Shown: in pieces, positions 7,709 to 27,833 of the stretch
Layout: the number at the start of each line of letters is the position of its first letter
How positions within the stretch are numbered: the first letter of the stretch is position 1
NCBI RefSeq assembly: GCF_000182745.2
Contig: NC_016027.1
Location: 2,517,001-2,581,000, forward strand
Reading direction: 5' to 3'
Source: Komagataeibacter medellinensis NBRC 3288
Lineage (GTDB): Bacteria > Pseudomonadota > Alphaproteobacteria > Acetobacterales > Acetobacteraceae
DNA: 64,000 nt
Translations under genes and position numbers: made by a program
The notes under the pieces: model-generated
Database searches by the model: none
Seen by the model: the letters and a program-made list of their open reading frames with translations, nothing else
What the model was told of the DNA's origin: nothing

Positions 7709-7955
7709 CAATAAAGTCCTCCCGCGCACTGAAGGCGGATCATACCCATCTGCTTGGTAGTATCCGAATAGATAGGAACATAGGATGTTCGTAACAAGTG
7801 ACCCTGCCAGAAGCATGAGGATGCTGCAATAATTTTATGCGTTCTCACCGTTACGGTTGATGAGAGTCATGTTTTCATATTTGAGTGTTCCCGATCCCGG
7901 TCTTTGCGATCACAGTCGCCGCAGACATCCCTATTGCAACTAAAAGAGGCGTCGT

Positions 7956-9605: not shown

Positions 9606-9622
9606 GCCATAGGATCGAAACC

Positions 9623-10765: not shown

Positions 10766-10840
10766 CCCCGCTTTCCAACATCCTGCCTGCCTCGCTGACG
10801 CACCGGTTCAAGTACGCTGCCGAGGATTTCTGGAGCTGAA

Positions 10841-11917: not shown

Positions 11918-13496
11918 GACGACGATCGCCACCGTGCGTCTATTACGTTCTCGCTTGGCCGCATGGCTGGCTCTCGGCCTACCCATAGCAGGATGCACGG
12001 TCGGACCTGATTACCATAAATCATCACCGGCCTCGCCAACATCCTGGCATCAGAGTGTCGTGTCCGCTGAAAGTCATCCGGTACAGGCGCCGCTCGATCC
12101 GGAATGGTGGAACATCTATAATGATCCCGTCCTGACCGCACTTGAACAGCAGGTGGCGGGAGCCAATCTTGACCTGCGTGCAGCAGCCTATCGCTTCGCC
12201 GAGAGCATGGCGGAGCGCAGGATTGCGAGCGCTGCCCAGTTCCCGCACGCTGAAGCCAATGCCTCCTATGCGCGGGAGCGGGCCAGTCCCAATGGTGTGC
12301 TGGGTCTGCTTGGCACCATGGAAGAGCAGGGTGCAGGGTCAATCGCGAGTGGAACGCAGGGATTCGGTCCCACACGCCTTCCGGGGGCCGCAGGCGCTTC
12401 ATCCTTCAACCTGCCGCAATATGGTATGAATGCCTCGTGGGAAGTGGATTTCTGGGGTCATGTCCGCCGACAGGTCGAGGCTGCGACAGCGGCCATGCGC
12501 GCGACCGAGGATATGCGGCGCGACGTGCTGGTATCGCTCATGGCGGAAACCGCGCAGGACTACCTCGAACTGCGGGGGGTGCAGGCCCAGATCGGGATTG
12601 TCGAAAATAACATAGGGATCGCGCGCCATAGCGTGCAACTAACGACTTTACGTTTTACTCAAGGGGCGGCGACCCGCCTGGATGTCGCAGATTCCACGGG
12701 CCAACTGTACAGTTTTGAATCCCGTCTTCCCGTTCTGAAAAGCCAGGAAGTGCATCTGATCAACGCGCTGAGTTTTCTGGTTGCACGCGAGCCGGGTGCT
12801 CTCACGGCGCAGCTTGGTAAACCTGCGCCGGTTCCGCCCGTGCCAGTGTCTGTGCCGGTTGGCCTGCCGTCCGAGCTGGCCGAACGGCGGCCGGACATCC
12901 GTATGGCTGAGGAGCGTTTGCACGCCGCGACGGCCAATATCGGTGTGGCCATCGCCGACTTCTTCCCACGTGTCACGCTGTCGGGAAGTCTGGATGTGCA
13001 GGCGCTCCAGTTCAGCGGGCTGGGGTCATGGGCATCGCGACAGTACGGGTTCGGACCGACAGCGACACTACCGATCTTCGAAGGTGGCCGACTGACGGGG
13101 CAGCTCCGCCTGCGCAAGGCGCAGCAGAGGGAGGCCGCTGTCATGCTTCAGCGCACAGTCCTGAAAGCCTGGCAGGAAATCGACGACGCCATGGCTGATC
13201 TCTCGGCGGCGCAGAACCAGAGGGATCGTCTCGCTGAAGCCGTCAAGGAAAACCAGATCGCCGTGCAAACGGCTCAGGCCCAGTATGTGCAAGGATCGTC
13301 CGACTTCCTGAACGTCCTGACCTTGCAGAATGCGCTTCTGGCGACCCAGAACCAGCTTGTGCAGGCCACAACCAACGTCTCCACCTCGGCGGCTCGTCTC
13401 TACCGTGCGCTCGGTGGGGGATGGGAGCGGCGGTTCCCGGTTGAGGGGCGCCGTTATGCGGCAGGCTCGTCATCAGCGGCAAAGGGGAAATCATGA
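11904..13496 (+). CDS. NodT/OprM-type outer-membrane efflux lipoprotein, cassette 1
   Basis: The start ATG 11904 gives a lipoprotein signal ending in the lipobox LPIAGC followed by TVGPDYHKS, the standard RND/NodT opening. Two repeated OEP regions follow, with the family marks WWNIYNDPVLTALEQQV, ASWEVDFWGHVRRQVE, ERRPDIRMAEERLHAATANI and PIFEGGRLTGQL. About 530 residues is slightly long because of an inserted Gly/Ser stretch near residues 120-160. It overlaps the adaptor gene by 14 bp and the following pirin gene by 4 bp (ATGA), so translation is coupled through the operon. Confidence 0.92.
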   Translation: MSGSKTTIATVRLLRSRLAAWLALGLPIAGCTVGPDYHKSSPASPTSWHQSVVSAESHPVQAPLDPEWWNIYNDPVLTALEQQVAGANLDLRAAAYRFAESMAERRIASAAQFPHAEANASYARERASPNGVLGLLGTMEEQGAGSIASGTQGFGPTRLPGAAGASSFNLPQYGMNASWEVDFWGHVRRQVEAATAAMRATEDMRRDVLVSLMAETAQDYLELRGVQAQIGIVENNIGIARHSVQLTTLRFTQGAATRLDVADSTGQLYSFESRLPVLKSQEVHLINALSFLVAREPGALTAQLGKPAPVPPVPVSVPVGLPSELAERRPDIRMAEERLHAATANIGVAIADFFPRVTLSGSLDVQALQFSGLGSWASRQYGFGPTATLPIFEGGRLTGQLRLRKAQQREAAVMLQRTVLKAWQEIDDAMADLSAAQNQRDRLAEAVKENQIAVQTAQAQYVQGSSDFLNVLTLQNALLATQNQLVQATTNVSTSAARLYRALGGGWERRFPVEGRRYAAGSSSAAKGKS

Positions 13497-14221: not shown

Positions 14222-14431
14222 AGACCTGAGTGTTTTCATGGGACACGTTAAAGTGATAGTTCGTTCAGAAACAAGTTGATTCATAAAGATAGGGGAATTT
14301 TGGGGTAGGACTACCAACGTGGGGCGCTATATATACAGACTCATCGGTTCGTGAAGTTCCGGTAACTTCGGTCAGCACGTCCCGAACAACTGACCCCGCT
14401 TATGGATCTATATTTTCGGGAGTACAGAATA

Positions 14432-15037
14432 ATGAAGACAACTCGTATCCCTCATCGAAGCATGTATTACGGTACGCCGGTCGCCTTGGTCTGTACGCAG
14501 AACAGCGACGGCTCGGAAAATCTGACGCCCATGTCGTCATCCTGGTCCCTCAGGGACTTCGTAGTGCTTGGCTTAGGATGTGCGTCTCAGGCTATGGAAA
14601 ATTTACGTCATCGGCCTCGACTGACGGTAAACCTTCCTTCTGCAGATATGTGGGAATCAATTGAGCGTATTGCAGTGTTTACAGGGAAAAATCCCGTTCC
14701 TGACCATAAAGCAACACACTTCTCTTATTGTCGGGACAAGTTTGAGGCTGCAGGGCTGACGCGGCTCACATCAACCGAAGGGGGTCCGTCACGCGTTGCC
14801 GAGTGTCCGATCCAGATTGAGGCCGTCGTGAATACAGTGACCGACGTTTCGGATAATCCAGAAGGGTTCTCCGTTATCATCGCAAAAGCCGTCGCGATGC
14901 ATGCTGCGGTCGGGATCCTTGATGAAACGTCTGGTCAGATTGATCCGGTAAAATGGGATCCTCTTATATTCAGTTACAAGACTTATCACGGTGTCGGATC
15001 TGAATTGGGTCGTATGGCCCGTGTCATAAGATCCTGA
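14432..15037 (+). CDS. Flavin reductase-like (FMN split-barrel) protein
   Basis: About 201 residues from ATG 14432 (GGGAG about 10 bases upstream; an in-frame ATG at 14402 is less supported). Seen: SMYYGTPVALVCTQNSDGSE near the N-terminus, then NLTPMSSSWSLRDFVVLGLG and ENLRHRPRLTVNLPS. These are the FMN-binding split-barrel pattern of flavin-reductase-like family proteins, which usually bind FMN and reduce it with NAD(P)H or act as flavoenzymes. It stands alone, 210 bp after the pirin gene and next to IS debris. A role as electron donor to a monooxygenase is possible but not shown. Confidence 0.75.
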   Translation: MKTTRIPHRSMYYGTPVALVCTQNSDGSENLTPMSSSWSLRDFVVLGLGCASQAMENLRHRPRLTVNLPSADMWESIERIAVFTGKNPVPDHKATHFSYCRDKFEAAGLTRLTSTEGGPSRVAECPIQIEAVVNTVTDVSDNPEGFSVIIAKAVAMHAAVGILDETSGQIDPVKWDPLIFSYKTYHGVGSELGRMARVIRS

Positions 15038-15270: not shown

Positions 15271-15299
15271 GTGTTGGGAACAGAGCGGTATTTGTGCCC

Positions 15300-15435: not shown

Positions 15436-15513
15436 TCTGAATAGGAGGTAAGCAATCACAGATCCGAAGGCAAACACCTAGGGATTTCTAACACCATCCA
15501 CGTCTGACAGGCT

Positions 15514-16350
15514 CTAATTTAAATACCAAGCTTCCTCCACACACCTCGCAATGTTCAGTCGAGCCAATTCCTCAAGATGTGACAACAGTGTGAGGCGGAC
15601 GGCCTCGTGTTTATGCTTGTCAGCTAGTCTGTAGGCACGCAGCGCGAGTGCATCGAGCGTTAAAGGCCTCTTGGTTAATAACGCCCGGATTTCGTCTAGA
15701 CGCTCAATACGACGGCACAATAGTGCTCTAACGACCAACTGCGGTTCATGAAGCGGTGGCCCATGCGCCGGAAGCAAAAGGGCGTCTTTACGTGACAGCA
15801 CAAGTTTTAGGCTCTCCATATATAGCCTAAGATTTCCCTCAGGAGCCGGAGGTACAACGGATGTCGACCACCCCATTATATGATCACCGGTAAAAAGAAC
15901 GCCATTTTGCGTAGCAAAACAGATATGATCTAGTGTATGACCCGGAGTGCCTATGGCTTGAAGGCCCCCAATGACGTCTCCGTCTTCCAGCCGAATTATC
16001 TCCAACTGTTCATTTGCAAGACTGTTCTTGTGAACAGCAACCGGAGCTCCCGTCTGTTCCTGAAGCTCCCGTGCGCCTCCGTAATGATCGGCATGCCAAT
16101 GGGTAATCAAAATATACTCAATATTCCCTCCTGTCGCATTAAGTATTGAATTGATATGTCCGGGATGATCGCTTCCTGGATCAATTACAATTGTACCTGT
16201 CTCGGTCTGAATAAGCCACGTGTTAGTTCCATGATAAGTCATAGGACCGCAGTCCGTGGTCACGATGCGCCGTATTCCTGTCGTAACACACAGTGGCTCA
16301 CCCTTCGGCGGAGGAGGCTCATAGACTTTCCATGCATTTCTATTTGACAT
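15514..16350 (-). CDS. Metallo-beta-lactamase-fold hydrolase (LACTB2-like)
   Basis: About 278 residues from ATG 16350 (GGAG 12 bases upstream; other in-frame ATGs at 16374 and 16383). Zinc motifs are complete: THWHADHYGG (HxHxDH), a further His in GTPGHTLDHICF, Asp in LFTGDHIMGW and His in LLPAHGPP. The C-terminal helical domain (RRIERLDEIRALLTKRPLTL) is typical of the LACTB2/hydroxyacylglutathione-hydrolase-like group. Substrates in the family are esters, thioesters or RNA. It is transcribed divergently from the paa-type operon across a 315-bp control region, so a thioester- or ester-cleaving role in the same pathway is plausible but inferred. Confidence 0.85.
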   Translation of the reverse strand: MSNRNAWKVYEPPPPKGEPLCVTTGIRRIVTTDCGPMTYHGTNTWLIQTETGTIVIDPGSDHPGHINSILNATGGNIEYILITHWHADHYGGARELQEQTGAPVAVHKNSLANEQLEIIRLEDGDVIGGLQAIGTPGHTLDHICFATQNGVLFTGDHIMGWSTSVVPPAPEGNLRLYMESLKLVLSRKDALLLPAHGPPLHEPQLVVRALLCRRIERLDEIRALLTKRPLTLDALALRAYRLADKHKHEAVRLTLLSHLEELARLNIARCVEEAWYLN

Positions 16351-16665
16351 GATACATGATGCTCCGTAGCACATAAATATCAATTAACGTCCAAGAAACT
16401 GCTTTCCGAGGTACGGGCATCATCCCCTATGCCGAAAAGCTACACATTATTATTCATGCAACTACGTTGCGACACCAACCTATACATAAAATTTCAACAA
16501 AAAAACCGTAAGAAATTACAGTATTTTTTTTGTCCATCCATGTGGCATCCTCGTTAACGATGGGCGCGGAAGGAGGCAGCGTCAGCATTAATGCTATAGT
16601 GCTGCCGAACCCTTTCTCAGCGCCTCCATAACGAGCGAAACGTACGATACGTGGAGTACTTTGCC
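16351..16665. promoter_or_regulatory. Divergent control region of the phenylacetyl-CoA cluster
   Basis: No gene is seen in these 315 bases. They separate the minus-strand hydrolase from paaG and must hold both promoters. The middle (16440-16540) is A/T-rich with A and T runs. No clear palindromic operator or PaaR-type site was recognised, and no regulator gene adjoins. Confidence 0.4.
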
Positions 16666-17448
16666 ATGGCAGATTGGTCGATCGATAACCCACATGCTGG
16701 CGTTGCGCGCATACGCATCACGCGAGGTGCCCGACGTAACAGTTTCACCAGTCGGCTTCTGCACGAGCTTGCTGAAAAAATAGAAGTATTGTCAGGATCG
16801 CCCGATATCAAAGTCCTTATTCTTTGTGGAGAAGAAACGTGTTTTTCGTCAGGTCATGATCTTCACGACCTCGGTATGGTTGAAGGGCATGATACCAGAG
16901 ACTTTGGGCTTGTCGTTATTGAAGACTATCTGCCACTAATTTCTGTCCTGAACAAATTTAACGGAGCAACCATATGTGCGGCCCGTGGCATGGTTGTTGG
17001 CTCAGCAGTAGGAGTTATGCTTGCGTGCGACATCGTATTACTTGGGGATACATGTCAGATCAGCCTTCCATTTTCGCGTCTTCACCTAATCCCTGATGGT
17101 GGACTGACATATTTTCTGACCCGAGCCATTGGAAGGGTCCGAGCGCTTGGTATGGCGCTTACCGGTCAGCCCCTGTCCGCGCACGAAGCAGCAGAAGCTG
17201 GGATGGCCTGGAAAGTCCGCGATGATAACGAGGTCGACGGTTTTGCTATTACTCTGGCGGAGAAGCTCTCATTAGTAGATAACCAAGCTCTTGCAGCAAC
17301 GCGCAAACTAATTGACGGATCTTATAACGGTGACCTTGAAGCGGCTATTCTAAAAGAAGCCGTCGGCCAGAAAATACGACAGCAGTCTACTGCAACATGC
17401 CAGGCTATAGATGCGTTCGTAAACAAACCAAAGAAAAAACATTCGTAG
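16666..17448 (+). CDS. paaG: Enoyl-CoA isomerase, PaaG-like (epoxide-to-oxepin-CoA isomerase)
   Basis: The start ATG 16666 follows GGAG by nine bases. The crotonase fold shows the oxyanion-hole segments EETCFSSGHDLHDLG (~57-70) and AARGMVVGSAVGVMLACDIV (~106-124). SRLHLIPDGGLTYFL closely parallels PaaG, including the single catalytic Asp (D144 here). PaaG converts the 1,2-epoxide of phenylacetyl-CoA to the seven-membered oxepin-CoA. 260 residues is normal. It opens the operon, 16 bp before paaK. Other crotonases are possible, but context and the RVRALGMALTGQPLSAHEAA block favour PaaG. Confidence 0.85.
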   Translation: MADWSIDNPHAGVARIRITRGARRNSFTSRLLHELAEKIEVLSGSPDIKVLILCGEETCFSSGHDLHDLGMVEGHDTRDFGLVVIEDYLPLISVLNKFNGATICAARGMVVGSAVGVMLACDIVLLGDTCQISLPFSRLHLIPDGGLTYFLTRAIGRVRALGMALTGQPLSAHEAAEAGMAWKVRDDNEVDGFAITLAEKLSLVDNQALAATRKLIDGSYNGDLEAAILKEAVGQKIRQQSTATCQAIDAFVNKPKKKHS

Positions 17449-17464
17449 TGGGCCGGAGGCTACC

Positions 17465-18793
17465 ATGAACGTTGACTCTCCTTCCGTCAGCCAGCGCGAC
17501 GAGCAACGCCTGCTGCATGTCTCACGCGATGAGCTTCTCGATCACCAGTCACGACGACTTCGCAATATTGTGTCGTGGGCCTACGAACGAGTCCCCTATT
17601 ATCGAGGGATGTTTCAAGAACACGGCATAGGGCCGCAAGACATTCGCGATATTGAGGATCTTACTAAACTACCTCTTCTTACGAAGGACGCCTTTCGTGC
17701 GACCTATCCATTTGGACTATTCGCTGTACCGCAAAGTCAGCTAACACGCATCCATGCCTCATCAGGCACAACTGGAAAGCCAACTGTCGTAGGCTATACC
17801 GCTGAGGACTTGTCCACGTGGGCCAACCTGATGGCGAGATCGTTGACGGTTGCCGGCGCGCGCCGAGGTGATACTGTTCAAATCGCTTTCAATTATGGGC
17901 TATTCACAGGCGGGCTTGGCGCACATTACGGGGCCGAAGCTGCTGGGTGCGTAGTAGTGCCTGCATCAACTGGCAATACAGACCGTCAGGTTGATTTAAT
18001 TCTAGATTTGGGACCAAAGGTCATACTCTGCACACCAAGCTATCTTCGCGTGCTTCTAACCGCGATGGCTGCTCGTGGAATCACGAAAGAACAATGTTCA
18101 CTGAAGGTGGCAGTGCTAGGAGCGGAGCAATGGTCGGAAAACTTTCGTAACCGGATAATTACCGACTTCCCATATAATATCACACCCGTAAATATTTATG
18201 GTCTATCTGAAATAATGGGCCCAGGGGTCGCCTGTGAAAACGGAGAAACCTTGGATGGGCTGACACTATGGGAAGACCATTTTCTGGCTGAAATCATCGA
18301 TCCGAAAACTTTGCGTCCGGTTCCATCGGGCGAACTCGGTGAATTGGTAATTACCTGCTTAACGAAGGAAGCCCTACCAATTGTGCGGTATCGAACAGGC
18401 GATCTCACCCGTCTATTGCCGCCAACTTGGTCTACGTTTCAAAGGATCGATCGCATTTCGGGGCGTGCGGACGACATGTTTATCGTCAGGGGGCTGAATA
18501 TCTTTCCGAGTACCATAGAAGAAATTATCTGCCAGTTTCCAGAGTTAGGTACTGACTACCAGATACATCTATCGCGGCCAATGCACCTTGATGAAATGGA
18601 GCTTCACTGTGAGTCATCCTACCCTCTTGCTTCTGCAACTTCTACGAATGACATTGCTGATAGGCTTACAAAACTCGTACAGATGAAAACCGGAGTAAGC
18701 TCGAAAGTAAAGATCTGCGCGCCTGGCATTCTCGCAAATCTCGGCGGCTCTAAGGTCAAGCGTATTTTCGATAGCCGCATGGGAAAAATCTAG
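17465..18793 (+). CDS. paaK: Phenylacetate-CoA ligase
   Basis: Activates phenylacetate with ATP and CoA to phenylacetyl-CoA. The 442-residue protein has the PaaK-type opening (LRNIVSWAYERVPYYRGMF), the AMP-binding P-loop HASSGTTGKPTVVGY (~98-112), VNIYGLSEIMGPGVACENGE, RYRTGDLTR and the C-terminal PaaK domain with ADDMFIVRGLNIFPSTIEEI. GGAGG precedes the ATG. It sits between paaG and paaA, 51 bp before paaA. Confidence 0.95.
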   Translation: MNVDSPSVSQRDEQRLLHVSRDELLDHQSRRLRNIVSWAYERVPYYRGMFQEHGIGPQDIRDIEDLTKLPLLTKDAFRATYPFGLFAVPQSQLTRIHASSGTTGKPTVVGYTAEDLSTWANLMARSLTVAGARRGDTVQIAFNYGLFTGGLGAHYGAEAAGCVVVPASTGNTDRQVDLILDLGPKVILCTPSYLRVLLTAMAARGITKEQCSLKVAVLGAEQWSENFRNRIITDFPYNITPVNIYGLSEIMGPGVACENGETLDGLTLWEDHFLAEIIDPKTLRPVPSGELGELVITCLTKEALPIVRYRTGDLTRLLPPTWSTFQRIDRISGRADDMFIVRGLNIFPSTIEEIICQFPELGTDYQIHLSRPMHLDEMELHCESSYPLASATSTNDIADRLTKLVQMKTGVSSKVKICAPGILANLGGSKVKRIFDSRMGKI

Positions 18794-18844
18794 TGTGCTC
18801 AGCTTTCGATTGAGACCCGCATCGCTACATGAGGGAATTCTGTC

Positions 18845-19885
18845 ATGACTATTAATCAACTTTCTAACTTGCCGAATAAATCAGTTATGTCACCTCTCGA
18901 CGAGCCCTCAATGGCCAATGTGTCCGACATCCAAATTCAGAGCAAGGAGGACGTGTTCGACGCTTATGTCGCACACGGCGGGAGAGTGGAAGCAAGTCAC
19001 TGGATGCCAGATGCATACCGTAAGACCTTAATAAGGCAAGTGAGTCAACACGCCCATTCAGAGATAGTGGGAATGTTACCCGAAGCAAATTGGCTAATTT
19101 CTGCACCGTCACTTGAGCGAAAGCAAATATTAATCGCGAAGGTGCAGGATGAGGCCGGGCACGGGCTTTATCTCTATTCCGTAGCAGAAACCCTCGGGGC
19201 AAAGCGAAAGGACCTAACCGACGCGCTTATTGACGGGCGTGCTAAGTATAGCTCCGTGTTTAATTACCCTTCGTTGACGTGGGCAGACGTTGGTACAATC
19301 GGGTGGCTTGTAGACGGGGCAGCTATTCTTAATCAAGTCACTCTCTGTGAAACGTCGTATGGCCCATATGCGCGTGCGATGATCAGAATATGCCGCGAGG
19401 AATCCTTTCACCAACGTCAGGGATTCGAAGCTCTCTATCGGATGTTTGCCGAGGGAACTGACGCCCAACGATCCATGATCCAGGATTCTATAAACCGTTG
19501 GTGGGCTCCTTCTCTTATGATGTTCGGACCACCAGACACAGACAGTAATAACAGTGCGCAGTCGATGAAATGGGGGATAAAAATTAAGACGAATGACACG
19601 CTTCGGCAGGAATTCGTCAACACGATTGCAAAACAATCTCGGATCATCGGCGTCACAATACCGGATCCGAGTCTGAAATGGTGTCCCGTTTCCGGAAATT
19701 ACGTATTTACCCAACCAGATTGGGAGGAGTTCTACGAAGTCATTGGCGGCAGGGGAATGTGTAACCAGGATCGACTGGAAAATATACGACGCGCGCGTGA
19801 CGATAATGAGTGGGTAATGGATGCCGCAGAGAAATACGAGGCGCAGCAGGGTAATTATGCGGCAGGAGATCCGAACCATGCCTGA
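18845..19885 (+). CDS. paaA: Phenylacetyl-CoA 1,2-epoxidase catalytic subunit A
   Basis: Diiron monooxygenase subunit that epoxidises the aromatic ring of phenylacetyl-CoA. Iron-binding motifs are intact: [20 protein letters not shown] (ExxH) and [13 protein letters not shown] (ExxH). The [20 protein letters not shown] opening matches PaaA. The annotated start gives ~35 residues more than the usual protein; an internal ATG at 18887 or 18911 is possible. It overlaps paaB by 8 bp. It forms the PaaABCE multicomponent complex with the next genes. Confidence 0.96.
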
Positions 19886-20153
19886 ATTATGGGAAGTGTT
19901 TATCCGCCCAAAAAATGGAATCGATTTTCGCCATTGTGGCAGTGTCCGCGCAGCCGACCCAGAATTAGCTCTTCAGGCCGCAAGAGATCTCTATACGCGT
20001 CGTCAGGAGGCTATCGCGATTTGGGTCGTAAAGTCGAAAAATATCCATGCGCTAGATCCTGACATCCGGGACGTTTATTTCGCCTCGGCTGACGAGCATC
20101 CCGAACGTTACGCTGGATATTACTCTCTCCCCGAGGGCGTCGAAGATATCTAG
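19878..20153 (+). CDS. paaB: Phenylacetyl-CoA epoxidase subunit B
   Basis: 91 residues from ATG 19878, with AGGAGA upstream inside the paaA end. The sequence shows the PaaB pattern: [20 protein letters not shown], then [20 protein letters not shown] and a C-terminal segment of Tyr and Glu residues. PaaB bridges the PaaAC heterodimers in the complex and has no cofactor. Normal length. Confidence 0.95.
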
Positions 20154-20163
20154 GAGAACGGCT

Positions 20164-20919
20164 GTGCTTGAAGACAAAAAAAATCAGTTGCCGAAGAGCG
20201 CTGCGTTTACACTGACACTGGCCGACAGTTGTTTCATTCAAACCCAGCGTCTTTGTCAATGGTGTGGGCAAGCACCATCTCTGGAAGAGGAAATGGCAAT
20301 CTCGAATATTGCTTTGGACACACTCAGCTATGCAAGGTATCTATACCAAGAGACGATCAACCGAGTAGAACTTCCCGAGACGCCAGATACGCTGGTTTTT
20401 AAGCGCGATGCCCGACAATATCGAAATTTTCGGTTTATTGAGCTTCCGCAATATTCTTTTGCTGATCTGGTATTGAGGAATCTAATTTTTTCCTCGTTTC
20501 TGCAAAATATGTTTCAACGCAACAAGATTGCCGATGAGAAGTTCTATTCATTTTCAGAAAAGGCCATTGTGGAAATCCAGTACCACGTCGACCATGCTCA
20601 CAACTGGATACGCCGTTTGTCCGTTGGCACGGCCATTGCGAAACAACGGATCCAATCCGCTTTAGATATCGTCTGGCCCCACACAAGAGAACTATCCTTG
20701 TTCTCAGAAGAGTTTGATGTCACAGATCACCTACAATCACAAACTCGGTGTTCGTGGCATCATCGTGCAACTGATTTGTTGCGTGAGGTTGGCCTTGCCT
20801 TGCCCTCTCTGCCTGACAGGTACAGGTGTGGATACGACGGCTATCATACAGAACACCTTGGGCGCCTGATTTCAGAAACCCAGTCGGTTTATCGGGAATT
20901 TCCTGGAGGAATCTGGTGA
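20164..20919 (+). CDS. paaC: Phenylacetyl-CoA epoxidase structural subunit C
   Basis: 251 residues starting at GTG 20164 with GGAGA nine bases upstream. It is a ferritin-like helical subunit that stabilises PaaA without a diiron centre. Family marks: LADSCFIQTQRLCQWCGQAP, EEEMAISNIALDTLSYARYL and KAIVEIQYHVDHAHNWIRRL. Its TGA overlaps the paaD ATG by one base (TGATG), pointing to coupled translation. Confidence 0.94.
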   Translation: MLEDKKNQLPKSAAFTLTLADSCFIQTQRLCQWCGQAPSLEEEMAISNIALDTLSYARYLYQETINRVELPETPDTLVFKRDARQYRNFRFIELPQYSFADLVLRNLIFSSFLQNMFQRNKIADEKFYSFSEKAIVEIQYHVDHAHNWIRRLSVGTAIAKQRIQSALDIVWPHTRELSLFSEEFDVTDHLQSQTRCSWHHRATDLLREVGLALPSLPDRYRCGYDGYHTEHLGRLISETQSVYREFPGGIW

Positions 20920-21455
20920 TGACCGGTGTAACGCACGAATTTAAGTCTAGCCATTGGAGCTCGGCGCAATCTGCCGAGAGAGTTTGGCAGATACTTTCAG
21001 ATGTTCGCGATCCCGAACTTCAAGTCGTTTCTGTTGTCGAACTGGGCATGATTGCCGACGTAACGATTAACGAAATGGGATCAGTGCATGTCGGCCTCAA
21101 ACCGAGTTATCTTGGCTGTCCCGCCTTACGTTATATAGAAGAATCCATCATTCGTGCCTTAAATTCGGCTGGTATACCCTCAGCAGTAGTTCATAGAGTG
21201 CTTTCTCCCGGATGGTCTCCATCGGACATCAGTGAGGCTGGGGCAGAGAAACTTCGGGCGGAGGGTATTCACATATCATCCCCAAGCACCGTTCCGGCAC
21301 AAAAACATCCAAGGGAGCAATCACTAGCACCAAAGTGTCCCGCATGCGGGAGCGATAATCTTATCATAACTTCGTCCTTTGGAGCCTCCCCCTGTCTTCA
21401 AATGGCTCGGTGTGAGGTGTGCGGTGAACCGCAGGCGGTCTTTCGTTGCAGATAA
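20919..21455 (+). CDS. paaD: Phenylacetyl-CoA epoxidase assembly factor PaaD
   Basis: The start is ATG 20919 with GGAGG eleven bases upstream. The N-terminal MIP18/DUF59 fold (LSDVRDPELQVVSVVELGMI) is followed by a Cys-rich tail CPACGSDNL...CLQMARCEVCGEPQ. This is the usual PaaD architecture, thought to serve Fe-S or diiron maturation of the epoxidase. 178 residues is typical. Confidence 0.94.
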   Translation: MTGVTHEFKSSHWSSAQSAERVWQILSDVRDPELQVVSVVELGMIADVTINEMGSVHVGLKPSYLGCPALRYIEESIIRALNSAGIPSAVVHRVLSPGWSPSDISEAGAEKLRAEGIHISSPSTVPAQKHPREQSLAPKCPACGSDNLIITSSFGASPCLQMARCEVCGEPQAVFRCR

Positions 21456-21488
21456 GAATGCCGTTGGATCTTGATAGGAGCAGTAGTG

Positions 21489-22577
21489 ATGACGCGAATG
21501 ACAACCACGATCGTCCAGGAGGCGGTAAGAGAAGCGGAAAATTCGATTCAATTTTCTCTCGACCCACAGCATCTACCGTTTTCGATGAATGCGGTACGCC
21601 CAGGTCATTTCGTTACTATTCGTAAATTGGGGGCAAATTCGACGCAAGGGAGATCCTATTCGGTCGCAAGTGGCATAGGTGACGACAAGGTGACCTTTGG
21701 TATTCGTGCAAGCGGACGGGCAGGGGTATCTACTTCCCTCGTCGAAGAAATTAGATCTGGATACAAACTCGAGGTGTCTAACTTACTGGGCAATGTTCTC
21801 GCAACTGACTATGAAATACAAAACGCGAGAGAGGTATTAGCAATCTGTGCGGGGAGCGGCATTACTCCTGCAATGAGCTTAATGAAATCGGTATTTAAAA
21901 GTAACCCATATGCAAATATTACTCTACTCTACATTAATCGCTCGCCACAGACCGTGATGTTTCTGGATGCACTCTGTTCATTGAAGGATATTTATAACAG
22001 CCGTTTCTCCATTTTGAACCGATTTACGCGTACCGGCTATGACGATGGAAAAGATATCCGCCAGGGGCGAATTACCGAGCCTGCAATTCAAGCGCTAGTA
22101 AAGGCTTGTGTGCATCCGGAAGCGTTGCCCGACATTGCGGTGACCTGTTGCCCTCCCGCGCTCCACAGTCCGTTCGAAACGGAACTCCTTGCTGCGGGCA
22201 TCCCTGCTTCGGCAGTCCGCACTGAAGGATTTGGTGGTTCAACGCTCACGGTCAAGGACGAAAAAGATGCTAGCCGAGCAGAGTCGGGAAGCGAGGTTGT
22301 CGTAACGGTCCTGCATGGAGGCATCCAGTATATCGTCCCAGTGGACCCTAATGGTGAGACACTGCTACAGGCAGCCCTTCGTGCGGGGGTGGTTCTGCCG
22401 CATTCATGTAGGACCGGTGTTTGTAAAACATGTCGTGCGGTGGTGACACATTCGGAGGAAGATTATCATACCACGCACCAAGGAGTGGACGTTGTGCTGG
22501 CATGCCAATACCGCCCTACTGCTTCCTGCACTGTCTCGTGTGATGATGCACTGGGAATCCGTCAATCGTTAGCATGA
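21489..22577 (+). CDS. paaE: Phenylacetyl-CoA epoxidase reductase subunit
   Basis: Passes electrons from NAD(P)H through FAD and a [2Fe-2S] cluster to PaaA. The start ATG 21489 has GGAG nine bases upstream. Domains: FAD-binding barrel with GRSYSVASG (~56), NAD(P)-binding CAGSGITPAMSLMK (~123), and a C-terminal plant-type ferredoxin with PHSCRTGVCKTCRAVV and a distant VLACQ Cys. It is the last gene before the 100-bp insertion element at 22598. Confidence 0.96.
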   Translation: MTRMTTTIVQEAVREAENSIQFSLDPQHLPFSMNAVRPGHFVTIRKLGANSTQGRSYSVASGIGDDKVTFGIRASGRAGVSTSLVEEIRSGYKLEVSNLLGNVLATDYEIQNAREVLAICAGSGITPAMSLMKSVFKSNPYANITLLYINRSPQTVMFLDALCSLKDIYNSRFSILNRFTRTGYDDGKDIRQGRITEPAIQALVKACVHPEALPDIAVTCCPPALHSPFETELLAAGIPASAVRTEGFGGSTLTVKDEKDASRAESGSEVVVTVLHGGIQYIVPVDPNGETLLQAALRAGVVLPHSCRTGVCKTCRAVVTHSEEDYHTTHQGVDVVLACQYRPTASCTVSCDDALGIRQSLA

Positions 22578-22597
22578 AGTTAGAGAAACATTTATCT

Positions 22598-22697
22598 GGC
22601 GGGTTCGAAAAACCCCTATTTAAGGCTTTTTGTCCGCAACAATATCAATGAGTTATGATTTCATAATCGACTCAAAAGAGGGTTTTTCGAACCCTCC
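22598..22697. mobile_element. 100-bp MITE-like element with 4-bp target duplication
   Basis: Both ends carry GGGTTCGAAAAACCC / GGGTTTTTCGAACCC-type inverted repeats. The flanks repeat ATCT (22594-22597 and 22698-22701), consistent with a transposition target duplication. The outer end matches the right end of the IS5-family copy at 31758-31776, which reads AGGGTTCTTCGAACCCTCC, so the IS5 transposase could have mobilised it. It carries no open frame. It sits between paaE and the MaoC gene and may alter transcription there. Confidence 0.7.
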
Positions 22698-22723
22698 ATC
22701 TTATATCTTGCGAGGAGTCTCCA

Positions 22724-23212
22724 ATGCATCCCTTCGAAATACCCTTCTCAGAAATCTCGCAACTTGTGGAATTCACCACTCATGGCCGCACACTTACCGA
22801 AACCGATATCGTGATGTTTTCTGGTATTTCTGGAGATTATTTCTACCTGCATACAGATGAGATGGCCTCTAAAAAAACCGTGTTCAATGGACGTATCGCC
22901 CACGGATACTTAATATTGGCCATCATTTCGGGACTAATTAGTTTGCCGCGTCAGGGGAGCGTCGTCGTAAATTATGGAATTGATAGACTACGCTTTCTCA
23001 AGCCTGTCGTTCCAGGTAACACATTGCGTGCAAAAATGAGATGCGTTGGCACAGAACAGAAGGCGCGTCGTAAAGGGCTCCCCTCGGGAGGTGTTGTTAC
23101 ATGGGAGGTCACTGCTCTCAACGAGGAAAATGCTGAAGTTATGTCAATGAATATGCTTACCTACGTTAGCGACGAATTTGCGTCAGGCTGCAACGCAGGG
23201 TCCTCTGATTAG
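22724..23212 (+). CDS. MaoC-fold hydrolase matching the C-terminal half of PaaZ (oxepin-CoA hydrolase), stand-alone
   Basis: 162 residues, hot-dog fold. GRTLTETDIVMFSGISGDYF followed by YLHTDEMA and RIAHGYLILAIISGL closely parallels the PaaZ C-terminal R-hydratase domain. The catalytic Asp38 and His43 sit in the GDYFYLHTD segment. The block VVNYGIDRLRFLKPVVPGNT also matches PaaZ. In PaaZ this domain hydrolyses oxepin-CoA to a reactive semialdehyde, which the fused aldehyde dehydrogenase oxidises. That dehydrogenase is absent here and in the whole window. GAGGAG precedes the ATG. By analogy the semialdehyde would cyclise to a seven-membered carbocycle; this is inference. Confidence 0.85.
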   Translation: MHPFEIPFSEISQLVEFTTHGRTLTETDIVMFSGISGDYFYLHTDEMASKKTVFNGRIAHGYLILAIISGLISLPRQGSVVVNYGIDRLRFLKPVVPGNTLRAKMRCVGTEQKARRKGLPSGGVVTWEVTALNEENAEVMSMNMLTYVSDEFASGCNAGSSD

Positions 23213-23335
23213 TCTTCCTCGAAATACTGGTAATATTAACAGTAGATCGGAATCACGTGGTTTGTGAAACTGCCATACTATAAGTGCCATCCTAGTCGAT
23301 TCTGGCGTCTTTTCTGGGCACTTCGGAGAAAAACA

Positions 23336-23761
23336 ATGGCTACATCCTTCCAGACAAGAATTCCCGTCCGTTATAGGGATACGGACTCAATGGGGCATGT
23401 TAGCAGTCCTGTGTACTATGATTATCTTCAGCATGCTTATCTTGAATACATGTTCGCACTACTCGGCCTTCCCCGCTCCGAAAAACTACCGCAGATCATG
23501 GTTAAGACATCTTGTGAATACGTAGCTCCGGCATTCTTCGGGGATGTCCTTATCATCGAAAGCAAGGTCACGGGCTTCGGGAACAAAAGTTTCGAAATGG
23601 AGCACATCTTTTATAAAGATACGGATGAACGCCCTGTCATCGCCCGTACTTATTCCAAACATGTCATGTTCGATTATGACCGAAACACAACTGTCCCCGT
23701 AAGTGCGGAATTTCGAGACGAAGTTAACGCTTTCCAAGATGCGGTCGAGTTAACGGTGTGA
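23336..23761 (+). CDS. 4HBT/YbgC-like acyl-CoA thioesterase (TdaD-like position)
   Basis: 141 residues from ATG 23336 (GGAG upstream; the open frame reaches 23264 without support). It shows the hot-dog thioesterase signature RYRDTDSMGHVSSPVYYDYL with the catalytic-type Asp, and PQIMVKTSCEYVAPAFFGDV. The family hydrolyses acyl-CoA thioesters. In the tropodithietic acid cluster a comparable thioesterase (TdaD) stands next to an acyl-CoA-dehydrogenase-like enzyme, as it does here. Seventeen bases separate it from the next gene. Confidence 0.85.
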   Translation: MATSFQTRIPVRYRDTDSMGHVSSPVYYDYLQHAYLEYMFALLGLPRSEKLPQIMVKTSCEYVAPAFFGDVLIIESKVTGFGNKSFEMEHIFYKDTDERPVIARTYSKHVMFDYDRNTTVPVSAEFRDEVNAFQDAVELTV

Positions 23762-23778
23762 CGTGAAAGGGAAGCGTC

Positions 23779-24915
23779 ATGGAGTGGCAAGGGAACGGAC
23801 AGTCAATCTACGACCGTTACAAACGTCTGGGCATCAAGCTTAGGACAAGGGACGGTATAGCCCCCCATCAATTTGATCAAGACGGGTGGGATGCCCTGCG
23901 CGAAGAAGGGCTCTGGGAGTTGATCTGCCCTGAAGGTAGAAAAGCAGACAATAGCTGCTGGTGGCAATTTACTGCGGCGCTAGATGGACTTTCGTCAGCA
24001 ATCGGATCCTCTGGTTTACTTTTGTCCATAATCGCTCAGGCAGGTATTGTGCGGGGGCTCGACAGGTGGGGCTCCGACGCGCAACGGGAAAAATACCTTG
24101 AGGCTGTCCGGACCGGTAAGCTTAGCGCAACAGGTATCGCTGAACCAACCACAGGAACCGATGTTCGAGATGTTCACACACTACTAACGCCATTCGGGAA
24201 CGGTTATAAGCTGAATGGATCGAAATTTAATATTGCGCATGCGCCTGTCGCTGATTTTTTCCTAATCGTATGCAAGCAAGAAACGGGAGCAGTAAGTCTC
24301 GTCTTCCTCGACCGCGGAACTCCGGGTTTAGTGACAGGAAATTATGATCTCAAGTTAGGCAATAAAAATCTCCCCACCGGTCCGATTGCTTTGGACGACG
24401 TGTATGTTTCTCCCGAGCAAATTCTCGGTAACGTAGACCGGGGACTGCGCCAGCTCATCGATATAGTTACCTTAGGCAGGGTTTATTATGGTTTAGTCGC
24501 CTCTAATTTACTACGTCCTTTCCTCACATCCGCAATAGAGTATGCAGAAACGAGGGTGAGTTTTGGCTCGCCCATCATTGAGCACCAGCACATCCAACGA
24601 CGTCTGACCGACATCATTACGCGGATCGAGAGATCCCGATGGACAGCACTTGGTGCTCTCGGGCGACTATTTTCGGAACACCCTCAGTCGCTGCTCGATT
24701 GCTCCATAGCAAAGGTCGTTGGTGCAGACGACGTCATTAGCAACGGGCTCGAATTGATGAAGCTGTATGGTAGCCTCGGCTATCATATAGGACCCGTTTC
24801 CTCAGTGCTCCAGGACGCGCTCGGCTTCGCCAGTGTGGGGGGTACTGAGGAGATGCACCGGAAGAACATCATGAATCAGATTCTACGGCTGAAGAAGAAA
24901 ACTACGAACGATTAA
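23779..24915 (+). CDS. Acyl-CoA-dehydrogenase-like flavoprotein (TdaE-like position)
   Basis: 378 residues with the complete ACAD fold: N-terminal helical domain, FAD/substrate loop KLSATGIAEPTTGTDVRDVH (~113-132), beta domain, and a C-terminal four-helix domain with GRVYYGLVASNLLRPFL and RVSFGSPIIEHQHIQRRL. The usual YEGT catalytic Glu position of short- and medium-chain enzymes reads SVGGTEEMHR (~352-361), so the normal base is not there. TdaE, the flavoprotein dioxygenase of tropone biosynthesis, is an ACAD homologue, and the neighbours match. The reaction (ring oxidation rather than alpha,beta-dehydrogenation) is inferred. Confidence 0.8.
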   Translation: MEWQGNGQSIYDRYKRLGIKLRTRDGIAPHQFDQDGWDALREEGLWELICPEGRKADNSCWWQFTAALDGLSSAIGSSGLLLSIIAQAGIVRGLDRWGSDAQREKYLEAVRTGKLSATGIAEPTTGTDVRDVHTLLTPFGNGYKLNGSKFNIAHAPVADFFLIVCKQETGAVSLVFLDRGTPGLVTGNYDLKLGNKNLPTGPIALDDVYVSPEQILGNVDRGLRQLIDIVTLGRVYYGLVASNLLRPFLTSAIEYAETRVSFGSPIIEHQHIQRRLTDIITRIERSRWTALGALGRLFSEHPQSLLDCSIAKVVGADDVISNGLELMKLYGSLGYHIGPVSSVLQDALGFASVGGTEEMHRKNIMNQILRLKKKTTND

Positions 24916-24950
24916 ACTCCGGCGCTTTTTGGCGTTTTGGGAGGCAAAGT

Positions 24951-25931
24951 ATGCCACAATTCGTTGACGACAGGCTTAACGAGTTTCTGCAGAGCGACGG
25001 GGGCTCAATAGCCCATCTCGGTCCTTCAGGATCGTTCTCGCATGAAGTATGCAGTTCAATCAGTTCGCGCGTGCGTCCCGAACCACGACGGACATTCGGG
25101 GATGTGATTGACGCAGTTGTCACTCAGAACGTCGATTACGGGCTAATCCCAATTTATAACACAATTGCAGGACAAATAATCGCAGGATGGAGCGCGCTTC
25201 TGGACAGCGGAGTGATCGCCGTTGGCGCGTATGTCCACCGCATTAGCCTCGCGTTACTTGCACGTGAAGGAGCGACACTATCTACGATTCGTCGCGTCGT
25301 GTCCCATTCTGCCGCGTTGAGGCAGTCTAGCCATTGGCAGCGGCGCATGCTCATTGGAGCGCAGGTGTCACATAGTACTGCGGCGGGCGCCGCATTAGTC
25401 TCGAGAACGAGATCTCGAGAGTTGGCGGCCATAGGCTCGCCTAACCTTGCAGATCGTTACAATCTCTCGCTGGTTGCACACGATATTGCCAACGATGTGG
25501 ACAATGAAACTACCTTTCTGTTGATTCAAAGACAAAATGACACGGCGGCGACAGATAATAAATTTCAAAGGACATCTCAGATCTGCTGCCCGGTCTCGCC
25601 GAATGTGCTGCTTTCAAGGGTTGCGCCTGAGGGAGAGAGGGCAAACGAACGTGAGAGGTTACGATCGCAAATAAGTTTCACTTGCCGTTCGGGCAGGGCA
25701 CTCGAGATCTTCTTGAAAAACGAAGATGGGTCCACAAATGAGACACTAATTCATGGCTGTTCAGTTCGAACGGAAGGTCGTTATCTAGGTCATATCCCAG
25801 TGGCTGCCACCAATGTCGACCGCCTTTATCGCGCATTTGGTTTCCAGAGTAATTTCTTAAGAGACCATTTTTTGGGGAATATACCAAAAGACAATTCATA
25901 TATAGTTATATACTCAAGGGTTCTTCAATAA
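24951..25931 (+). CDS. Prephenate-dehydratase-like protein (TdaC-like position), altered active site
   Basis: 326 residues with GGAGG upstream. PDT-fold landmarks are in order: AHLGPSGSFSHEVC (~21-34), DYGLIPIYNTIAGQI (normal PIENS altered), VVSHSAALRQSSHW, the HSTAAGAALV segment, and a final NETTFLLI where PheA-type enzymes have TRF. The region after ~220 could be a decayed ACT domain, without a recognisable ESRP phenylalanine-binding motif. Prephenate dehydratase makes phenylpyruvate. TdaC of the tropodithietic acid cluster is a PDT homologue. The changed motif leaves open whether it still dehydrates prephenate or acts on another cyclic intermediate. Confidence 0.8.
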   Translation: MPQFVDDRLNEFLQSDGGSIAHLGPSGSFSHEVCSSISSRVRPEPRRTFGDVIDAVVTQNVDYGLIPIYNTIAGQIIAGWSALLDSGVIAVGAYVHRISLALLAREGATLSTIRRVVSHSAALRQSSHWQRRMLIGAQVSHSTAAGAALVSRTRSRELAAIGSPNLADRYNLSLVAHDIANDVDNETTFLLIQRQNDTAATDNKFQRTSQICCPVSPNVLLSRVAPEGERANERERLRSQISFTCRSGRALEIFLKNEDGSTNETLIHGCSVRTEGRYLGHIPVAATNVDRLYRAFGFQSNFLRDHFLGNIPKDNSYIVIYSRVLQ

Positions 25932-25960
25932 TTTTTGGGCTGAATTTGTAACCAGAAATA

Positions 25961-25990
25961 CAATATAATAAAATACAATTTATTATATTG
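25961..25990. promoter_or_regulatory. Perfect 12-bp inverted repeat upstream of the decarboxylase gene
   Basis: CAATATAATAAA and TTTATTATATTG face each other around ATACAA, 88 bp before the decarboxylase start and 30 bp after the preceding stop. It contains only A/T-rich DNA and no T-run follows, so an operator is more likely than a terminator. Confidence 0.45.
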
Positions 25991-26077
25991 ATGTCGATTT
26001 TTAACACGCGTTCCCGCGGAGGGTCACGTAATGGGCGCTCTGATATCTCGCGATCGAGGATAAAAAAGGAAACAGAC

Positions 26078-27760
26078 ATGCCCGCGCAATCAATCGGAAA
26101 CACACTCATAGATATATTTGTCGAGGCCGGAATCAAACGTATCTATGGGGTGCCCGGTGACTATAATCTTCGCTTTCTTGAGCTTCTCGAAAGTGATGGC
26201 CGTATTGAATTTATCGGAACATGCAACGAACTTAATGCCTGTTACGCGGCAGATGGAGACGCCCGAATCAGTGGCTTTGCTGTGGTCACGGTAACCTATG
26301 GCGTTGGTGATCTAGGCCTCCTTAGTGCCATTGCTGGTGCTTATGCGGAGAATGTGCCGGTCCTTGTTCTCTCAGGCGCACCTCCGGAGTACGCGTCTAG
26401 ATCCGGAGCCCTCCTTCATCACACCCTCGCGGATGGCAACTATACAAACGTTCTTAAGGCGTTCGAGCAATTTACCTCAGCCCAGAGTACTCTCACCGCC
26501 CAAAACGCTGGAACCGAATTGCTACGACTCATCAAAGTCGCATGGACTATGAAGCTTCCAGTTTATGCACAACTTCCATCCGATATAGTTGACGCACCTA
26601 GCGAGCGAAACACTCCCACGCCGAATTATTGTTTTCCAAGTTCTGATAAAACAATACTTTCAAATGTCATAAATTTTTTCGTCCATCGCTTAGAGCGTGC
26701 TCACTCCCCCGTCATTTTAATTGATGCCCTTGCGGACCGTTATGGGGTAGTTTCTGACATTCTCCGGATCATCGAAAAATGGAGCTTGCCCTATGCCGTT
26801 ATGCCGACAGCAAAAGGGACTTGTCCCGAGGATAGTTCCCTCTATTTGGGGGTATATTTCGGGCAAAAATCACGTAACGGGTTGTTCGAACTCATCGGTC
26901 AATCGGATCTCGTCATAGGCATCGGTGTCCGTTTCGTGGATTCAACGTCTGCGTGGTTCTCGCAACGTATTCGGGCGGACGCGTGGGTCAATATTGAAGC
27001 GACACAAGTTGTCTCTTTCAAACAGTCCTTTGAGAATGTCGAAATCACAGAATTAGTTTCTACATGGCTCAAATGGGATACTGATCGGCACCCAAGGTCT
27101 ACCAATTCTTCGCAGTCGGTTTCGATCAAACCACAGGTCAACATAGTCTGGGGGCAGCATTACTTCTGGAGCCAAATCGAAGCGTTTATTGAGCCACACG
27201 ATATAATTATTGCGGATAACGGCACGTCGCTTGCGGGCGTGAATGCTCTTAAATTACCAGAAGGATGTAGCATTGTTTCCCAACCTATATGGGGAGCGAT
27301 TGGCTATACATGTCCCGCGCTACTCGGCACGCTACTTGCTGCACCGCATAGACGCCAGTTGCTCTTCATTGGGGATGGAGCATTTCAACTTACTGGGCAA
27401 GAAATTTCCACCATGCTGAGGCGAGGTGCGGCGCCAATTATCTTCCTCATCAATAATAGAGGTTATACGATAGAACGAATGATCCTTGGACCAAACGCAC
27501 ATTTTAATGATATAGCCGCGTGGAGCTATGAAGACCTGCTACACGGTTTCGGCGGAAAAGAGTGTGGCAAATTTATAAAGGTCGGCGATATATCGGGTCT
27601 CCAGAAAGTTCTTCAGAATCCATCAAACGGTGATAGATTGCTTCTAATCGAAGTCTCGTTTGATCCACTTGACGGACCACCTGGTCTCAGCGAATTTGGC
27701 AAGATGGCTCGAGACTATGACTACCCTACGTCCTACGGCATGTCGTCAGTTAAGTCATGA
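26078..27760 (+). CDS. Thiamine-diphosphate 2-oxoacid decarboxylase (phenylpyruvate/indolepyruvate type)
   Basis: 561 residues from ATG 26078 (AAGGA upstream; earlier frame extension to 25988 is unsupported). It belongs to the pyruvate/indolepyruvate/phenylpyruvate decarboxylase family. The activating Glu51 is in TCNELNACYAADG, the His pair H114-H115 in LLHHTLADGNY, and the ThDP/Mg motif is GDGAFQLTGQEIS ... INNRGYTIE. HHTLADGNY resembles aryl-pyruvate decarboxylases more than pyruvate decarboxylase. With the PDT-like and PaaK genes it would supply phenylacetaldehyde and so phenylacetate; an aldehyde dehydrogenase is not in the cluster. The stop is only ~20 bp from IS5 DNA. Confidence 0.85.
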   Translation: MPAQSIGNTLIDIFVEAGIKRIYGVPGDYNLRFLELLESDGRIEFIGTCNELNACYAADGDARISGFAVVTVTYGVGDLGLLSAIAGAYAENVPVLVLSGAPPEYASRSGALLHHTLADGNYTNVLKAFEQFTSAQSTLTAQNAGTELLRLIKVAWTMKLPVYAQLPSDIVDAPSERNTPTPNYCFPSSDKTILSNVINFFVHRLERAHSPVILIDALADRYGVVSDILRIIEKWSLPYAVMPTAKGTCPEDSSLYLGVYFGQKSRNGLFELIGQSDLVIGIGVRFVDSTSAWFSQRIRADAWVNIEATQVVSFKQSFENVEITELVSTWLKWDTDRHPRSTNSSQSVSIKPQVNIVWGQHYFWSQIEAFIEPHDIIIADNGTSLAGVNALKLPEGCSIVSQPIWGAIGYTCPALLGTLLAAPHRRQLLFIGDGAFQLTGQEISTMLRRGAAPIIFLINNRGYTIERMILGPNAHFNDIAAWSYEDLLHGFGGKECGKFIKVGDISGLQKVLQNPSNGDRLLLIEVSFDPLDGPPGLSEFGKMARDYDYPTSYGMSSVKS

Positions 27761-27833
27761 GTGAGGCACGTCGGGGTTGTACTTTGTGTCTGCGTGTACT
27801 GACTGTTTTCCGTTTTATGGTGGAGACAGACAG

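Follow-up and report, generated by a model that had tools for sequence, protein, structure and literature searches.

A horizontally acquired gene cluster with a predicted role in tropolone-type biosynthesis in Komagataeibacter medellinensis

Genes of the cluster

We analysed a 64,000-nt stretch of the Komagataeibacter medellinensis NBRC 3288 genome (contig NC_016027.1, positions 2,517,001 to 2,581,000; hereafter the window), in which twelve genes on the plus strand between 16651 and 27760 form a cluster whose content points to tropolone-type biosynthesis. Pfam and NCBIfam matches give the order paaG-paaK-paaABCDE, followed by genes for a PaaZ-type hydratase, a thioesterase, a flavoprotein resembling acyl-CoA dehydrogenases (ACADs), a protein with a prephenate dehydratase (PDT) domain and an arylpyruvate-type decarboxylase. 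All frames are open, and adjacent genes overlap or lie at most 56 bp apart, with the sole exception of a 146-bp gap between paaE and the hydratase gene. An earlier, sequence-only reading of the interval 15514-27760 had named these genes in this order and on this strand, with which the open frames and domain matches agree; at the left end of that interval it passed over a metallo-beta-lactamase-fold gene on the minus strand (15514-16383). Genome-wide statements below refer to the 3.51-Mb assembly of eight contigs, which is 99.98% complete.

The first seven genes correspond to the upper phenylacetate (PAA) route. The paaG-like gene (16651..17448, perhaps starting at the ATG at 16666) encodes a predicted 1,2-epoxyphenylacetyl-CoA isomerase with an ECH_1 match of 127 bits, and its top NCBIfam match is the PaaG family TIGR02280 (152 bits, cut-off 345). 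It is followed by paaK (17465..18793), encoding a phenylacetate-CoA ligase (TIGR02155, 524 bits, cut-off 646) that is homologous to TpoF and 45-49% identical over 398-435 residues to the PaaK/TpoF proteins adjoining TdaE in six Pseudomonas loci. When the epoxidase PaaABC(D)E was tested subunit by subunit, A, B, C and D scored above their NCBIfam equivalog cut-offs: the catalytic subunit PaaA (18845..19885; TIGR02156, 456 bits, cut-off 280), PaaB (19821..20153, probably starting at 19878; TIGR02157, 101.6 bits, cut-off 85.5), PaaC (20164..20919; TIGR02158, 173.7 bits, cut-off 133.4) and PaaD (20826..21455; TIGR02159, 112.8 bits, cut-off 108.2). The PaaD match begins at residue 60, and the real start probably lies downstream of the longest-frame start. 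The PaaE-like reductase (21471..22577), with Fer2 and NAD_binding_1 domains, scored below its own cut-off (TIGR02160, 183.5 bits against 420.8).

The next gene (22724..23212) encodes a stand-alone PaaZ-type enoyl-CoA hydratase. Its MaoC domain scores 98 bits, and the PaaZ profile TIGR02278 aligns only at positions 518-662 of 664, so that the aldehyde dehydrogenase (ALDH) domain is missing. The protein is 46% identical over 150 residues to a hydratase in a Janthinobacterium TdaE locus (L036), and by eye its D38-H43-G61 spacing is the same as that of the catalytic residues D33-H38-G56 of the hydratase TrlA (PMC11110157). For the thioesterase gene (23264..23761), of the 4HBT family, the ATG at 23336 given by the sequence-only reading is a more probable start than that of the longest frame. 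Its product is 61% identical to Phaeobacter inhibens TdaD and 60% to the Burkholderia arboris homologue, which identifies it by sequence as TdaD/TpoD.

The flavoprotein gene (23779..24915) begins 17 bp after tdaD. Its best 40 plasmid matches listed were all Phaeobacter TdaE proteins (48-51% identity), and at E 1e-60 it matched 62 plasmid records, 58 from Phaeobacter, three from Tritonibacter and one from Burkholderia. To place it, 84,980 species were scanned, one genome per species, for either of two conserved TdaE peptides, which returned 53 loci. A tree of 58 rows was built from 52 of these, P. inhibens TdaE, the window protein and four ordinary ACADs chosen from weaker plasmid matches; L070, a partial match at ~30%, was left out. 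The 54 TdaE rows, including the window protein, split from the four ACADs with 100/100 support. Within them, the window protein, whose branch is long (0.9), grouped with three Sphaerotilaceae proteins (98/95 support); alternative groupings with the alphaproteobacterial (p 0.149) or the Pseudomonas TdaEs (p 0.128) remained acceptable in AU tests. Its identity is 46-58% to the main TdaE group; a second group, whose members come from Burkholderia, Paraburkholderia and Trinickia, stands at 35-40%.

Despite the long branch, the window protein retains 35 of 37 diagnostic columns, which we derived in this analysis by requiring the residue in 37 or more of the 38 main-group rows and in none of the four ACADs. 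Among 108 near-constant columns it keeps 103, compared with 71-79 in the second group and 40-49 in the ACADs. Its Gly354 aligns with a Glu in all four ACADs, which we take to be the ACAD catalytic Glu. The flavoprotein is thus, by sequence, TdaE/TpoE, for which an oxygenase function on 2-hydroxycycloheptatriene-carboxyl-CoA is predicted. Of the 56 other TdaE-type loci compared, 34 have TdaD within the flank, 25 of them immediately upstream of TdaE, and the adjacency of the two here is therefore not a matter of chance.

The PDT-domain protein (24951..25931; PF00800, 137.7 bits) had been proposed as TdaC, and this assignment we reject: in BLASTP comparisons with the TdaC proteins of P. inhibens and Tritonibacter, the protein showed no similarity of any significance. 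Of these two TdaC proteins, the first is without a Pfam match at threshold and the second reaches only 26 bits to PDT. The window protein is 26% identical over 178 residues to the genome's own PheA; its AlphaFold model (m2fc1327441e4) is confident over approximately residues 17-190, with pLDDT of 35-60 per block from residue 201. The last gene (25988..27760, probably starting at 26078) encodes a thiamine pyrophosphate-dependent, arylpyruvate-type decarboxylase (TIGR03393, 413 bits, cut-off 946), a TpoG homologue that is 41-43% identical over 547-552 residues to the decarboxylases adjoining TdaE in the six Pseudomonas loci.

Origin of the cluster and related loci

TdaE was found in one of 100 relatives and one of 397 family genomes, two overlapping sets in which the single positive is the host genome, and paaA and paaC occur in one of 19 genus genomes. 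The GC content of the cluster is 0.491, compared with 0.604 pooled over 14 of the host's own loci (51.6 kb, not a random sample). Because of this distribution of TdaE in the family and this difference in composition, we conclude that the cluster is horizontally acquired. Three transposase-domain genes lie directly downstream, at 28413-31645. At the window's left end, 64-1242 and 1397-1953 hold a DUF3363 frame, which we take to be probably relaxase-related, and short matches of 84-86% to Kozakia baliensis plasmids, hinting that this end is plasmid-derived.

A collinear locus exists in A. persici JCM 25330 (L018), which has a 100% match to the window's TdaE and is collinear with window positions 13777-30605 at 99.2%. 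Over the 12.2 kb of 15514-27760 the two loci differ by no substitutions and three single-base, frame-shifting indels, at positions matching 17863, 20135 and 23642 of the window. They appear to be either mistakes of a draft assembly or genuine disruptions.

We compared the cluster with 56 TdaE loci, 52 from the scan (L019-L070, here with L070) and four from plasmids (L011, L013-L015), with species partly repeated. The window proteins were used as tblastn queries against flanks that reached 10 kb in most loci and never exceeded 15 kb. At E 1e-12, TdaD was matched in 34 loci, PaaK and the decarboxylase in six each, the hydratase in five, the PDT protein in two, and PaaG and PaaC in one each; PaaA, PaaB, PaaD and PaaE had no match in these flanks. 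At E 1e-4, PaaA was additionally matched in L029, a PaaE-like protein in L025, the hydratase in L052 and the PDT protein in seven more loci. The six loci with both PaaK and the decarboxylase are all from Pseudomonas. In one of the Pseudomonas loci, L029 (Pseudomonas sp. T1-3-2), two diverged PF05138 (PaaA/PaaC family) frames lie at 12599-14021, between the tpoF and tpoG homologues.

The most similar complete gene set is that of the Pseudomonas tpo cluster, as in P. donghuensis HYS (L028), with which the window shares homologues of TpoD, TpoE, TpoF (PaaK) and TpoG (the decarboxylase), here likewise occurring together. Mutants of TpoD, E, F, G and N are reported to make no product, and tpo clusters to make 7-hydroxy- and 3,7-dihydroxytropolone (PMC11481866). 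The published cluster also has an enoyl-CoA hydratase, TpoN, to which the window hydratase may correspond, to judge by its domain, and a similar LysR gene and tripartite efflux set lie nearby. In P. donghuensis, paaEDCBA and paaG are described in a separate cluster 2 (PMC10454607), whereas in the window paaABCDE and paaG stand inside the cluster; the nearest precedent for the latter is Pseudomonas sp. ACM7, whose cluster reportedly contains six additional PAA genes (PMC11481866). The window further differs in its PDT-domain gene, its gene order and a lower route that was not found.

In the tropodithietic acid cluster of P. inhibens (tdaA-F, L011), TdaD and TdaE are the relatives already described. 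The TdaE chemistry has been demonstrated, and P. inhibens is reported to use PaaZ2 with a dysfunctional ALDH domain, with paa genes elsewhere in the genome, unlike the stand-alone hydratase here; the same genomic separation of the paa genes is described for Phaeobacter and Burkholderia examples (PMC8283759). The second TdaE group (L054-L065, L067, L068 and B. arboris L013, in which TdaD lies 13.4 kb from TdaE) has prephenate dehydratase genes in several members and no PaaK, decarboxylase or paaABCDE match in its flanks. The Sphaerotilaceae loci (Roseateles, Pelomonas and Mitsuaria; L023, L024 and L026), to our knowledge uncharacterised, have the nearest TdaE in the tree and the same tdaD-tdaE order, with no paa or decarboxylase match in flanks of at most 10 kb; in L023 a short frame after tdaE appears PDT/ACT-like by eye. 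In the Streptomyces trl cluster, a stand-alone enoyl-CoA hydratase proposed to reroute the PAA route is combined with precursor-supply genes, as in the window, with TrlE/TrlCD monooxygenases and a PaaY-like TrlF in place of TdaE and TdaD (PMC11110157).

Searches of open-licence PubMed Central articles returned none whose title or abstract start concerned tropone biosynthesis in acetic acid bacteria, and Acetobacter is absent from the main text of PMC11481866. One survey lists Acetobacter among genera with phenylacetate degradation clusters and, in the text available, mentions neither tropone nor tropolone (PMC13186573). As far as searched, three features are therefore new: an acetic acid bacterium as host of such a cluster; TpoF and TpoG homologues outside Pseudomonas, contradicting the restriction to Pseudomonas stated in PMC11481866; and a complete upper paa route joined with TdaDE, with no visible lower route. 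A phenylpyruvate-to-phenylacetate supply, which the sequence-only reading did not know from described clusters, has a precedent in TpoG and TpoF, reported as essential in the Pseudomonas tropolone clusters (PMC11481866); it is still new in occurring outside Pseudomonas together with complete epoxidase genes.

Predicted pathway and competing explanations

The elements of a degradative phenylacetate catabolon, a PaaZ ALDH domain with PaaF, PaaH and PaaJ or equivalents, were not found together in this genome. As the sequence-only reading had noted, paaF, paaH, paaJ and the PaaZ ALDH domain are missing from the interval. Genome-wide, no PaaZ fusion was detected, and the PaaZ profile found its hydratase part in the cluster only. 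Thiolase_C had no match, in a search that was positive in 12 of 14 controls (Thiolase_N was not searched for). Nor was there a convincing 3-hydroxyacyl-CoA dehydrogenase: 3HCDH_N gave three matches of 20-22 bits, at or just above the 22-bit cut-off and covering 34-40 of 180 positions, in a search positive in 14 of 14 controls. PaaA and PaaC occur only in this cluster, and Acyl-CoA_dh_1 matched TdaE and two weaker proteins. With these lower-route genes undetected, phenylacetyl-CoA has no visible way into central metabolism, and judged by gene content it is very unlikely that this genome supports phenylacetate degradation.

From the identity of the genes, the membership of TdaE and TdaD in their families and the lack of detectable lower-pathway genes, all of which are observed, we infer a self-contained cluster, acquired horizontally, that would serve the biosynthesis of a tropolone-type compound, a reading we hold with high confidence. 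The chemical steps are taken from published work on homologues. Phenylpyruvate from the shikimate pathway would be converted to phenylacetaldehyde by the 25988 decarboxylase, and then to phenylacetate by a non-clustered aldehyde dehydrogenase. PaaK would form phenylacetyl-CoA, PaaABC(D)E would epoxidise it, and PaaG would then yield oxepin-CoA, whose ring would be opened by the stand-alone hydratase. Since no dedicated aldehyde dehydrogenase follows, the semialdehyde is predicted to condense spontaneously to 2-hydroxycyclohepta-1,4,6-triene-1-carboxyl-CoA. TdaE would dehydrogenate and epoxidise this intermediate, with CoA removed by TdaE and/or TdaD, and the resulting epoxytropone carboxylate would decarboxylate to tropolone, perhaps hydroxylated later. 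Our confidence in this predicted pathway is high as far as the TdaE product; the identity of the final product is put forward with less confidence.

The central claim of the sequence-only reading, tropone or tropolone biosynthesis through a PaaABCE/PaaG/PaaZ-hydratase shunt and TdaE, is thereby supported at the sequence level. It had named as grounds against itself ACAD- and PDT-like proteins falling outside the TdaE and TdaC clades, together with a complete paaF/H/J/Z set elsewhere. The ACAD-like protein lies inside the TdaE clade and no such set was found in the genome; only the PDT protein lies outside TdaC. Likewise, the assignments of the genes at 22724, 23336 and 23779 to the PaaZ hydratase domain, TdaD and TdaE held, and that of 24951 to TdaC did not.

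Several observations weigh against this biosynthetic reading. PaaG, PaaE, PaaK and the decarboxylase score under strict family cut-offs, although for the first three the PAA family is still the top match. The genome has eight aldehyde-dehydrogenase-type places, far under the PaaZ profile cut-off, and its ECH_1 matches are PaaG and one further crotonase; the phenylacetaldehyde dehydrogenase would lie outside the cluster. In L018 the paaK frame is cut short and the paaB frame continues into paaC, unless the indels are sequencing errors. The 24951 protein reads TTF where the PDT motif, important for catalytic prephenate dehydratase, is TRF; TRF is kept in the genome's own PheA and, among 55 TdaE loci searched, in all 16 that gave a PDT match at E 1e-8. 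The 24951 protein may be a supply enzyme that is altered or has lost its activity. The cluster hydratase matched nothing in the flank of P. donghuensis L028. Finally, the purified stand-alone TrlA hydratase was reported as inactive on oxepin-CoA in vitro (PMC11110157); by analogy, the ring-opening step may require more than the hydratase alone.

A different end product is possible, though we consider it unlikely: a hydroxylated tropolone (7-hydroxy- or 3,7-dihydroxytropolone) acting as an iron scavenger, rather than tropolone itself. The resemblance to the tpo clusters that make these compounds (PMC11481866) favours it, as do a TonB siderophore receptor left of the cluster and the flavin-reductase-like and, by eye, ferritin-like genes described below. 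However, no hydroxylase was recognisable here, the one of the Pseudomonas pathway having yet to be assigned; the consensus used found no Fur-type iron box, and the TonB receptor was matched in only one of the 56 TdaE loci. It is improbable that the cluster was recently acquired and is silent or decaying, as the TdaE branch length, the transposase genes directly downstream, the altered PDT motif and the L018 indels could suggest, since all frames are open in this genome, TdaE keeps 103 of 108 near-invariant positions, and window and L018 show no substitutions over 12.2 kb.

A sulfur-containing product of the tropodithietic acid or ditropolonyl sulfide type is very improbable. TdaD and TdaE are common to such clusters, and the hydratases closest to that of the window come from two TdaB-bearing loci, Janthinobacterium L036 and Duganella L034 (45-46%). 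Yet TdaB had no match in the genome, in a search without a positive control, and at L018 none of TdaA, TdaB, TdaC, TdaF and the M23-peptidase was matched, whereas Phaeobacter, Tritonibacter and Pseudovibrio loci match several of these. The sequence-only reading had seen neither TdaB nor TdaF and proposed a sulfur-free product; with TdaB not found in the genome, within that limit, and neither of the two matched at L018, such a product is likely on sequence grounds. Also very improbable is an ordinary degradation cluster whose lower steps come from generic enzymes, for which the complete paaABCDE-G-K set, the eight aldehyde-dehydrogenase-type places, the other crotonase and the listing of Acetobacter in PMC13186573 could be cited, and which we reject in view of the missing PaaZ fusion and Thiolase_C, the lack of a convincing 3-hydroxyacyl-CoA dehydrogenase and the presence of only one other crotonase. 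Furthermore, we know of no degradation role for TdaD or TdaE.

Neighbouring genes and significance

The gap between paaE and the hydratase gene holds, at 22597..22698, two hairpin-forming, mutually inverted copies of GGGTTCGAAAAACCC and a promoter-like site at 22630-22659, and may for this reason divide the cluster into two transcription units. Promoter-like (sigma-70-like) sites and terminators showed no excess over shuffles in the region. An element close to GGGTTCGAANAACCC has nine matches in the window at up to three mismatches, compared with 1.6 expected, mostly intergenic and including 22601-22615, 22680-22694, 31759-31773, 33265-33279 and 40237-40251; it is probably a common terminator-type hairpin.

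To the left, 6752..13496 may form a regulator and export module, with genes for a LysR regulator (6752-7816, minus strand), an EmrB-type MFS protein (7956-9605), a ferritin-like protein (~9623-10765), an EmrA-type adaptor (10841-11917) and a NodT-type outer-membrane protein (11796-13496). The six Pseudomonas loci and Paraburkholderia phenazinium L030 contain relatives of the efflux proteins, with 45-58% identity across most of each protein, and LysR has relatives of 43-45% in five of those six and L030. An equally close EmrB-like protein (57.7%) on an A. pasteurianus plasmid weakens the case for EmrB as cluster-specific, and the regulator and export genes are only candidate cluster members. 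A second LysR and EmrB-EmrA-NodT set lies on the other side of the cluster, at 34751-40039; LysR is divergent in both, and the two sets are 70% (EmrB), 68% (EmrA), 60% (NodT) and 52% (LysR) identical. The ferritin-like protein, with EExxH-type motifs by eye, had no Pfam, NCBIfam or PDB match; relatives of up to 66% occur on 13 Burkholderia-group replicons, and it is possibly a di-iron oxygenase.

Directly left of paaG, the divergent metallo-hydrolase (15514..16383, minus strand) is LACTB2-like, with 4ad9 as best PDB match. It shares the cluster's low GC and is a second, diverged copy: all 18 other genus genomes searched contain a relative at 41-44%, and the host's own further copy is 42% identical. 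It had no match in the 56 TdaE loci, and a role as accessory or self-protection gene is speculative. The flavin-reductase-like protein (14402..15037, plus strand; PF01613), a possible accessory, was matched in only one of the 56 loci, L030, where a protein encoded 3.9 kb away from TdaE is 54% identical over 195 residues. A LuxR-family regulator with a GerE domain (4625..5323, plus strand) is 61-62% identical to regulators near tdaD in L013 and L054, over 61-62 residues of the DNA-binding domain only, and 27% over 206-221 residues in L023, L024 and L026. We therefore downgraded it to a weak candidate for cluster regulation. At 5585-6706, a GntR-type regulator adjoins a small conserved protein on the opposite strand. 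The small protein (6311-6706), present in 12 of the 56 TdaE loci, was dropped as cluster-specific, being present in 69 plasmid records; among the 15 records listed, two carry it under a feature named GntR regulator.

A broader proposal would combine an anabolic-only, shikimate-fed paa pathway in a host unable to degrade phenylacetate with an island that also supplies export, through the LysR and EmrAB-NodT sets on its two sides, and a spare metallo-hydrolase that would protect the host from its own metal-chelating tropolone. We regard this combination as doubtful, and slightly more so now that the LuxR similarity has proved confined to the DNA-binding domain.

Tropolones chelate metals and are antimicrobial, and A. 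persici is familiar from fruit, vinegar work and the Drosophila gut. An A. persici metabolite that raises paraquat resistance in flies has been reported, its identity not being given in the source (PMC10112789); a link to the cluster product is speculation. Bacterial tropones have been described as the salvage of a catabolic by-product (PMC8283759, PMC7497051). An upper paa route without a detectable lower route would mark a step from such hybrid to purely biosynthetic use, in a compact cluster of natural origin that would cover almost the entire predicted route from phenylpyruvate to the tropone ring.

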